The translations under genes were made by a program, and so were the position numbers. Below the pieces are notes generated by a model that did no database searches, had not been told where the DNA came from, and saw only the letters and a program-made list of their open reading frames with translations. Of a stretch of 64,000 nucleotides of DNA, positions 13,500-45,774 are shown in pieces; positions within the stretch are counted from its first letter, which is position 1; every line of letters starts with the position of its first letter. The stretch lies in NCBI GenBank assembly GCA_016930695.1, contig JAFGGD010000026.1:1-64000 (forward strand). The letters run 5' to 3'. The DNA comes from Candidatus Eisenbacteria bacterium. Lineage in GTDB: Bacteria > Orphanbacterota > Orphanbacteria > Orphanbacterales > Orphanbacteraceae.

Positions 13500-13508
13500 A
13501 TTATACCA
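13500..13508 (-). promoter_or_regulatory. Extended -10 promoter (TGGTATAAT) of the 12114-13424 gene
   Basis: Minus-strand TGGTATAAT is a perfect extended -10 with TG one base before a consensus hexamer. No -35 is needed for such promoters and none is obvious. It faces the phytase-like gene, whose TTG start is 76 bp downstream. Confidence 0.55.
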
Positions 13509-43316: not shown

Positions 43317-43844
43317 TTATTCCAAACCGTCTCCGGGGCGCCGCCGATCCGTCGACCAGTCGATTCCCACGCTCCACCCGGGATCGTTCGCGCCGATCGT
43401 GCCTCCCAGAATCGCCCCGGTCGCGGCCATCGCCCCGGCCATGTACCACGCGTTCCGGTAGTCGTCCGAGCCGGAGAGCGCATTGGCGAGGATCCCGAGA
43501 AAGAGCCCGGTTTGGGCGCCCGCGCCCAGCCCTTTCATCGTGCATTGAAAACGGGAAAGCTCGTAGACGCGGGGGCGGTAGAGCTGTTCCACCGGATAGG
43601 CGCCGAAGCGGTTGAAAGAGAGTGTGGTCGGTGACCGCGTCGTCTCGGTTTCCGCGGGTTCCTTCCGTTCCTCGGGAGGGGTGAGGCGGAGCCGCGCGTC
43701 CCGCAGAAGCCAGCCGGTGTATGCCGACGGGGCGCGGAGTCGCGGGCCGGTCCGTTCGGGGTCGGGCGGCGTTTCATCCGCCGCGGCGAAGGCTCGTGCG
43801 ACGAAGAAAAAGAGAAGGATCGGAAACAGGGCCGGCCGAAACAT
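43317..43844 (-). CDS. Small exported/membrane protein, function unknown
   Basis: A 175-residue protein that I do not recognise. The start at 43844 is chosen for its signal peptide (MFRPALFPILLFFFVARAFA) and an AAAAGG upstream; an in-frame ATG at 43886 is less likely. The mature part is Pro/Arg/Glu-rich to about residue 75. A Gly/Ala-rich hydrophobic segment (GLGAGAQTGLFLGILANAL, then AGAMAATGAILGGTIGA) follows, which could be a glycine-zipper membrane hairpin. It is a single gene convergent with nothing close. Glycine-zipper lipoprotein-like envelope proteins are a possible comparison, but this is speculative. Confidence 0.55.
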   Translation of the reverse strand: MFRPALFPILLFFFVARAFAAADETPPDPERTGPRLRAPSAYTGWLLRDARLRLTPPEERKEPAETETTRSPTTLSFNRFGAYPVEQLYRPRVYELSRFQCTMKGLGAGAQTGLFLGILANALSGSDDYRNAWYMAGAMAATGAILGGTIGANDPGWSVGIDWSTDRRRPGDGLE

Positions 43845-43884
43845 GGTCGTACCTTTTGGGCAGGGGCGGGTGAACCTCGACATC

Positions 43885-43914
43885 ATTGTAAATCATGATT
43901 CGTTCCGTCCGCAA
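43885..43914 (-). promoter_or_regulatory. Candidate promoter of the 43317-43844 gene
   Basis: Minus strand TTGCGG (43914-43909), 18-bp spacer, TACAAT (43890-43885), placed 41 bp before the ATG. Confidence 0.4.
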
Positions 43915-44021: not shown

Positions 44022-44030
44022 TGGTACAAT
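44022..44030 (+). promoter_or_regulatory. Extended -10 promoter of the ABC-F leader
   Basis: TGGTACAAT, identical to the element at 36338-36346. The transcript would start near 44037, leaving a 220-nt leader before the ABC-F ATG. Confidence 0.52.
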
Positions 44031-44072
44031 AGCTTCGTGGGGCCGAAGAGAGCCCCGGGAGGAATCGGCACG

Positions 44073-44084
44073 GTGAAGATCTAA
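44073..44084 (+). CDS. Possible three-codon leader ORF
   Basis: GTG AAG ATC TAA with a strong ribosome-binding site GGGAGGA (44057-44063), nine bases upstream. A ribosome would be loaded early in the ABC-F leader RNA, upstream of the antiterminator and terminator. Leader ORFs in this position are typical of ribosome-sensing attenuators of antibiotic-resistance ABC-F genes. This one is extremely short and could be chance. Confidence 0.35.
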   Translation: MKI

Positions 44085-44170
44085 AGCACACGAAGAAAGC
44101 GCCGCTCCGGCGGAGCGGACGGGGGCATCTCCGGACGGGGCGGGTCCCCTTCTTCGCGGGTTTTTCGAAT

Positions 44171-44234
44171 CGCGGCCGGTCCGACATGCGTACGAGGAAT
44201 GGACGGGCCGCGGGTAACCGCGGCTTTTTCTTTT
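44171..44234 (+). promoter_or_regulatory. Antiterminator/terminator pair (attenuator) of the ABC-F gene
   Basis: Terminator: GCCGCGG (44207-44213), a GTAA tetraloop, CCGCGGC (44218-44224), then TTTTTCTTTT (44225-44234), ending 25 nt before the ABC-F ATG. Antiterminator: 44171-44182 can pair with 44201-44212 in 11 of 12 positions (CGCGGCC with GGCCGCG, a G-G mismatch, then four more pairs). This uses up the 5' arm of the terminator, so the two structures are mutually exclusive. That is the layout of a transcription attenuator. Confidence 0.65.
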
Positions 44235-44263
44235 CGAAGAGTCCGACGGGAATCGGGACATGA
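44186..44263 (+). CDS. Possible 25-codon leader peptide overlapping the ABC-F start
   Basis: ATG at 44186 opens a 25-residue frame (MRTRNGRAAGNRGFFF then SKSPTGIGT). Its TGA overlaps the ABC-F ATG in an ATGA arrangement, allowing translational coupling. It runs through the terminator hairpin, so a ribosome on it would melt the hairpin. There is no good ribosome-binding site, which keeps confidence low. Confidence 0.3.
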   Translation: MRTRNGRAAGNRGFFFSKSPTGIGT

Positions 44264-45774
44264 AAAACATCGGTATCGAGTTCGAGGATGTCGGTTTCCT
44301 CTACGACGATGGATCGGCGCCGCTCCTCGCCGGTTTTACATGCCGATTCGCGGAGGGATGGACCGGCGTGGTGGGGGCGAACGGCTCGGGGAAGACCACT
44401 CTGCTCCGTCTCGCCGTCGGCGATCTCCGACCCCGGACCGGGCGGATCCGCATCCCCGGGCCGGCCCTTTACGGCGAGCAGAGAACCGACGTCCCGCCGG
44501 CGGATCTGGGGGGTTTTCTCAGGAGCGCCGACCCCGAGGCGTGCCGCCTGCGGGGCGCGCTCCACGTCGGCGGGGATTGGGACCGGCGCTGGAGCACGCT
44601 CAGCCACGGTGAAAGGAAGAGGACGCAAATCGCCGTCCTCCTCAGGCGCGAGCCGATGGTGCTCGCCGTGGACGAACCGACGAACCATCTGGACGGGGAG
44701 GCGCGTGGGCTGTTGATCGACGCACTCGGCGCATTCCGCGGCGTCGGCCTTCTGGTCAGCCATGACCGGGAGCTGCTCGACCGCCTCTGCGCGCGATGCC
44801 TGTTCCTCGATCCCCCCGAGGCGATCCTGCGGCCGGGCGGGTACGGAGAGGGGGCGCGCGAGGCGGCGCGGGAGAGGACGGAAGCGGTCCGGCGCCGGGA
44901 GATCGCTCGGGGAGAGCGCCGGCGTCTGGAGCGGGAGGCGGACCGCCGCCGGCGAGAATCGGAGCGGGGGGAGAAGGGGCTGTCGAAGAAGAGGCTCGAC
45001 GCGAAAGACCGGGACGGTCGCGCGAAGGCGAATCTCGCCCGGCTGACCGGCAAGGACGGCGCGGCGGCCCGACGTCTCCGAAACATGGAGGACCGGGCGG
45101 CGCGCGCCGCGTCGAAGGAGGAAGAGATCCGTCCGCGAAAGGCGTACGAAACGGGCATCGCCCTCCCCGGGACGAAGAGCCCCCGCGACTACCTCCTGCG
45201 TCTCTCCGCCGGGACGATCCCCCTGGGCGGCGGCGCGCTCCGTCATCCCGATTTGGCCGTCGGTCGCGACGATCGCGTCGCGCTGATCGGACCGAACGGA
45301 GCGGGAAAGAGCACCCTGGTGGAGAGGATCATCCGCTCCATCGATCTGCCGGAGGGGCGTGTGGTCTACATCCCGCAGGAGATCGACCTCGATCGATCGG
45401 CGGCGATCCTGGACGAGGCGCGAAGCCTCCCCCGCGCGGAGCTGGGGAGGATGATGAGCGTGGTCAGTCGTCTCGGATCCCGGCCGGAGCGTCTGCTCGG
45501 GAGCGGCGCGCCGACGCCAGGGGAGATTCGCAAGCTGCTCCTCGCCGTCGGCGTGGCGCGGGAGCCGTGGCTCATCGTGCTCGACGAGCCGACCAACCAC
45601 ATGGACCTTCCTTCGGTGGAGTGCCTGGAGGAGGCGCTTGGCGGATTCCCCGGCGCGCTCCTCCTGGTGAGCCACGACACGGCCTTCCTCCGGCGGCTCA
45701 CCCGCGTCCGTTGGATGATCGACCGCGCCGGAGAACCGGAGAGTTTTGACCTCCGGGTCCGTGCTTGGAAATGA
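44260..45774 (+). CDS. ABC-F family ATPase
   Basis: A 504-residue soluble protein with two ABC domains and no membrane segments. ABC1: Walker A GANGSGKTT (about 41-49), signature LSHGERKR, Walker B VLAVDEPTNHLD. The long, highly charged linker between domains (about 195-300, rich in Arg, Glu and Lys) is the ribosome-reaching arm of ABC-F proteins. ABC2: Walker A GPNGAGKST, signature-like TPGEIRKLLL and Walker B LIVLDEPTNHMD. ABC-F proteins bind the ribosomal E site and either rescue stalled ribosomes or eject antibiotics from the peptidyl-transferase region. The upstream attenuator with leader ORFs suggests induction by ribosome-targeting drugs, as for other resistance ABC-Fs; the drug is unknown. 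Confidence 0.88.
   Translation: MKNIGIEFEDVGFLYDDGSAPLLAGFTCRFAEGWTGVVGANGSGKTTLLRLAVGDLRPRTGRIRIPGPALYGEQRTDVPPADLGGFLRSADPEACRLRGALHVGGDWDRRWSTLSHGERKRTQIAVLLRREPMVLAVDEPTNHLDGEARGLLIDALGAFRGVGLLVSHDRELLDRLCARCLFLDPPEAILRPGGYGEGAREAARERTEAVRRREIARGERRRLEREADRRRRESERGEKGLSKKRLDAKDRDGRAKANLARLTGKDGAAARRLRNMEDRAARAASKEEEIRPRKAYETGIALPGTKSPRDYLLRLSAGTIPLGGGALRHPDLAVGRDDRVALIGPNGAGKSTLVERIIRSIDLPEGRVVYIPQEIDLDRSAAILDEARSLPRAELGRMMSVVSRLGSRPERLLGSGAPTPGEIRKLLLAVGVAREPWLIVLDEPTNHMDLPSVECLEEALGGFPGALLLVSHDTAFLRRLTRVRWMIDRAGEPESFDLRVRAWK

Follow-up and report, generated by a model that had tools for sequence, protein, structure and literature searches.

Drug-sensing attenuators that control ABC-F genes have been described mainly in Firmicutes and Actinobacteria. 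In the vmlR leader of B. subtilis, an upstream open reading frame (uORF) encoding MIN lies within an anti-antiterminator, and antibiotic-induced stalling there permits read-through (PMC9226507). Besides MIN, the published three-codon uORFs encode MRI (cplR) and MK[L/Q] (vmlR2) (PMC9226507, PMC10201436). The window, that is, the whole stretch of 64,000 nucleotides of Candidatus Eisenbacteria DNA analysed here, contains a leader that, judged from its predicted folding and from related leaders, is very probably a transcription attenuator operated by the ribosome, as in vmlR and cplR; it would most likely sense a PTC drug and control an ABC-F that probably protects the ribosome. Like vmlR, it has a three-codon uORF with a strong Shine-Dalgarno sequence (SD), located inside a predicted anti-antiterminator that excludes the antiterminator, and a terminator just before the ABC-F gene (PMC9226507). 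Unlike vmlR, it is GC-rich and belongs to a non-Firmicute host, with a different leader sequence, a GTG start, an MKI peptide and an ABC-F of another subfamily. Moreover, vmlR has a separate SD-hiding hairpin and a NusG pause, whereas the likeness of the window leader is one of predicted helices (PMC9226507). The resemblance to cplR of C. difficile (MRI) lies in an M-[basic]-I uORF, a 5' hairpin over the uORF and a terminator at the ABC-F start; in cplR the terminator additionally sequesters the SD of that ABC-F gene, whereas the predicted role of the window terminator is termination (PMC10201436). Premature termination before an ABC-F gene is also found in rli53, the Listeria lmo0919/vgaL leader, where it responds to antibiotics; this leader is likened by description, and lmo0919/vgaL, unlike the window gene, is a Firmicute gene for an ARE1 ABC-F (PMC11550727).

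All elements of the window leader are on the plus strand. The gene 5' of it (43317–43886) is on the minus strand, so that the leader sits between divergent genes and its terminator belongs to the leader itself, ending no other transcription unit. Re-reading of the sequence showed the element coordinates of the initial annotation to be correct to within one base, and the elements themselves are present. The extended −10 promoter element is TGGTACAAT (44022–44030), from which transcription is predicted to start at ~44036–44038; no −35 hexamer was found in front of it. The motif TGNTANAAT occurs six times in the window (vs 0.73 expected), the five further extended −10 copies being at 13500, 14933, 19392, 36338 and 55228, and this excess suggests that it is a promoter type of the host organism. 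The three-codon ORF with a strong ribosome-binding site consists of the SD GGGAGG (44057–44062), a spacing of 10 and GTG AAG ATC TAA (44073–44084), which would encode (f)Met-Lys-Ile. The terminator, described earlier as GNRA-capped and 25 nt before the ATG, is GCCGCGG-GTAA-CCGCGGC (44207–44224) followed by the tail TTTTTCTTTT (44207–44234 in all), with a stem of 7–9 bp, a GTAA loop and a computed hairpin energy of −17.4 kcal/mol; its end at 44234 is indeed 25 nt 5' of the ABC-F ATG at 44260. The antiterminator said to take up the 5' arm of the terminator is formed by CGCGGCCGGTCC (44171–44182) and GGACGGGCCGCG (44201–44212), the latter overlapping that arm, with 11 of 12 positions paired and the remaining one G-G. 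A 25-codon ORF (44186–44263) that overlaps the ABC-F ATG in an ATGA exists as annotated; it has no SD, was dismissed on that ground as a second sensor and is probably incidental.

The structural evidence throughout comes from equilibrium folding. Minimum-free-energy (MFE) folding, for which the initial annotation had called, yielded the terminator together with a third element that it had overlooked, a predicted anti-antiterminator built from the uORF itself. In the MFE fold, 44061–44074, the region of the uORF SD and start codon, is paired to 44169–44182, i.e., to the antiterminator 5' arm, and the helix extends up to 44097/44150, giving a 5' strand of 44061–44097 and a 3' strand of 44150–44182. 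Its predicted probability in free RNA is ~0.83. RNA polymerase might pause at 44161–44165, where a GGG-UUUUU follows a long hairpin within the anti-antiterminator; a pause site is present in the vmlR leader too (PMC9226507). A ribosome was simulated by a 32-nt footprint over the uORF start codon (44058–44089) that was set unpairable. With this mask, P(terminator) dropped from ~0.95 to 0.03–0.09 (0.948 to 0.033, and 0.946 to 0.085 in a second run), and P(antiterminator) rose from ~0.07 to 0.93 (0.068 to 0.929). Terminator, antiterminator and anti-antiterminator are therefore predicted as three mutually exclusive structures.

Chance resemblance in GC-rich DNA would fit the fold energy of the whole leader, which is ordinary (z −0.78), although this measure is uninformative. 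It is scarcely credible given the controls on the switch itself and the recurrence of the arrangement in other phyla (see below). When the stretch between uORF and terminator was shuffled, none of 150 shuffles showed a drop in terminator probability this large; when 462 kb of the host genome was examined in the same way, with the mask at the same distance, one terminator-like hairpin out of 26 was switched, that of the present leader. The direction of the switch was unchanged over 25–50 °C and with each of the three 3' ends and each of the three parameter sets used; it was weaker with the Langdon parameters (P(terminator) 0.98 to 0.70), and the terminator was weak even before masking when the Andronescu parameters were applied at 50 °C. 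With a transcript 5' end at 44045 the predicted switch was gone. A stronger response to a ribosome on the start codon than to one on the stop codon was considered and rejected, since it was lost when 3' end and parameters were varied.

The region 44037–44234, having its own promoter and a strong terminator, would yield an RNA of ~200 nt and might accordingly be a constitutive terminator or a stand-alone small RNA, with the ABC-F expressed unregulated by leaky read-through. This is quite improbable, as the 25 nt before the ATG are too short for another promoter, the antiterminator and anti-antiterminator go beyond shuffles, the switch is unique among the 26 genomic terminators and uORFs recur in homologous leaders. 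A metabolite riboswitch or a protein-binding antiterminator in place of a ribosome-sensed uORF would by itself be compatible with the terminator/antiterminator pair. Nevertheless, an Rfam search of the window gave no match, and when the mask was slid along the leader, P(terminator) was lowest for mask offsets between −4 and +4 relative to the uORF footprint, which is thus at or near the most effective position. Moreover, it is the uORFs that recur in homologues and not the remaining leader sequence, and we regard this explanation as very improbable. The features found in the window are those of the vmlR/cplR type: an SD-led short uORF lies 5' of the ABC-F gene, and an intrinsic terminator separate from the upstream gene stands between the two. 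In silico, the antiterminator uses the terminator 5' arm, the anti-antiterminator holds the uORF, and a ribosome at the uORF start abolishes the terminator under both shuffle and genomic controls.

The gene behind the leader (44260–45774, plus strand) encodes an ABC-F ATPase of 504 aa with two ABC domains, seen as two PF00005 stretches, with invariant DE motifs in each; its AlphaFold model (pLDDT 88.8) has long linker helices. The subfamily has unusual signatures, LSHGERKR in the first domain and PSPGExRK in the second; a linker motif, KDxDxRAKxDxARxxGKD, is strongly conserved. The closest solved structures are VmlR, VgaA and VmlR2 by profile and VmlR2, VgaL and then E. coli EttA by fold, with the highest TM-score for LsaA. 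In a tree whose references were VgaA, MsrA, OptrA, EttA, YheS-like proteins and numerous further ABC-Fs, the window protein groups with its 54 relatives in a single clade (SH-aLRT 100) that contains none of these references. The protein is outside the clades of the named resistance families (Vga, Msr, OptrA) and below their curated cut-offs; its best NCBIfam match, the ribosomal protection-like ABC-F NF000355, scores 264.8 bits against a cut-off of 380 (relatives 253–310). Its sequence places it in an uncharacterised subfamily, distinct from the reference proteins of the Vga, Msr, OptrA, EttA and YheS groups. No close homologue was found in six other genomes of the phylum, and viral contigs and plasmids contained distant ABC-Fs only, while relatives of 32–53% identity are scattered over many phyla, a distribution that marks it as an accessory gene. 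Murina et al. described uncharacterised groups including DAF1, DAF2 and BAF1-3, and read a patchy distribution as pointing to a function in resistance (PMC6723617). An accessory resistance factor is expected to be patchy, which fits the absence from the six genomes and the scatter elsewhere; together with the VmlR-, VgaA- and LsaA-like structures, this makes it plausible that the window ABC-F is a resistance factor.

The uORF could instead sense general translation stress or a non-drug ribosome trap, with the ABC-F acting as a translation or rescue factor. For the predicted switch it suffices that a ribosome is retained close to the start of the uORF, and the clade is apart from resistance and housekeeping references alike and below the resistance cut-off, all of which would suit such a role. 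We consider it unlikely, because the patchy presence misfits a housekeeping factor, the nearest structures are mostly resistance ABC-Fs, and the characterised three-codon uORFs of the vmlR/cplR kind that were found in the literature all sense drugs (PMC9226507, PMC10201436).

Leaders of homologous ABC-F genes were compared with that of the window. SD-led three-codon uORFs were present in 9 of 33 leaders from outside Fermentibacterota, against 1.2 expected, and none of 200 shuffles reached nine; in the same leaders, uORFs of 2, 4, 6 and 7 codons showed no similar excess and those of 5 codons were borderline. The encoded peptides include MRN (L111), MRI (L112, as in cplR; PMC10201436), MKR (L031), MTR (L032), MIL (L042) and MRL (L055), among others, and L120, L121 and L124 have GTG-AAR-AAC-stop (MKN) with a weaker SD. 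The mask lowered the predicted probability of the terminator in L112 (0.92 to 0.10), L120 (1.00 to 0.00) and L124 (1.00 to 0.14), and that of an SD-hiding hairpin in L042 (0.98 to 0.25) and L055 (0.93 to 0.01). L121 and L032 showed a predicted switch only if the footprint was moved ~12 nt downstream, and L031 and L125 showed none. In L120, L121 and L124 the three helices differ in sequence while pairing is preserved; this comparison comprises three leaders, none of them a close homologue of the window leader. A test of SD accessibility in other leaders was clear for L111, L115 and L039 and showed no effect for L031, L125 and L128; on this measure L042 fell no further than from 0.99 to 0.80 and L055 stayed unchanged, though the hairpins of both switch in the mask test. 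No such leader was found 5' of the ABC-F in the Verrucomicrobiota members or in L002 and L116.

The uORFs of L040, L114 and L127 themselves form pairs with the SD, and shuffles are for this reason invalid as a null in the accessibility test. L040 is from the cultured spirochaete Brucepastera parasyntrophica RmG11. Its ATGATTAACTAA, 100 nt before the ABC-F start, is a MIN uORF without SD, identical in peptide to that of vmlR; it pairs directly with the ABC-F SD and appears to be leaderless, since it begins only a few bases 3' of a consensus promoter. L114 and L127 have longer uORFs (MRLFRY... and MRIIRY...) ~61 nt before the gene that overlap the ABC-F start region, codons 3–6 pairing with a CGGAG SD. 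The Fermentibacterota have a compact arrangement: in 23 leaders, the ABC-F SD and start codon pair with a uORF of 5–6 codons that lies ~56 nt from the gene. The peptides include MIISF, MNTSF, MIILS and MILSIR (L133–L152, L037, L038, L113, L141 and L151, leaders ~75 nt 5' of the ABC-F). These leaders are predicted to be compact translation attenuators that hide the SD. In this respect they resemble the ermC-type translation attenuators, from which the window leader differs in that its output is termination.

The earlier reading of this locus as an attenuator-type leader is strongly supported by the mutually exclusive structures, the recurrence of uORFs in other phyla and the architecture shared with vmlR and cplR. 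When no drug is present, ribosomes would complete or quit the uORF, its SD and start region would pair with 44150–44182, and the anti-antiterminator so formed would block the antiterminator, halting RNA polymerase at 44234. An initiating or just-started ribosome trapped on the uORF would cover 44058–44089, allowing the antiterminator (44171–44182/44201–44212) to form, so that the terminator would be lost and the ABC-F expressed; the protein would then probably dislodge the trapping drug from the ribosome. Within this mechanism, we infer the translation of the uORF, the inducing drug and the resistance function of the ABC-F. The trapping signal is most likely a PTC drug, i.e., a pleuromutilin, a lincosamide or a streptogramin A, because the vmlR and cplR attenuators work by antibiotic stalling on three-codon uORFs. 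Macrolides would be less likely inducers, since three codons would be too few for a nascent chain to reach into the tunnel, and too few for the arrest that macrolides typically cause.

Attenuation of this kind is already known; what is new is the branch of ABC-F proteins and the host phyla in which it appears. Genes of a separate ABC-F clade are preceded by the putative three-codon sensor in Spirochaetota, in Aminicenantes and in a number of further little-studied phyla, and Fermentibacterota have a related version that hides the SD. Also new, as far as leader sequences indicate, is the recurrence, beyond Firmicutes and Actinobacteria, of a minimal uORF whose RNA output can be exchanged; a literature search, incomplete in its coverage, returned no report of such a uORF/ABC-F recurrence there. 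The evidence leans somewhat towards a more general picture, in which an uncharacterised ABC-F subfamily, patchy over many phyla, keeps a minimal uORF as its constant sensor, whereas both the RNA output (a terminator or an SD-hiding hairpin) and nearly all of the leader sequence are swapped between lineages. Such a subfamily would represent a large and so far undescribed group of inducible genes for ribosome protection beyond Firmicutes and Actinobacteria. The three-codon sensor in Spirochaetota, Aminicenantes and the other little-studied phyla would point to natural antibiotic pressure there, would allow resistance factors among uncharacterised ABC-Fs to be recognised by a sequence-only test, and would make the PLSA-sensing hypothesis directly testable by reporter.
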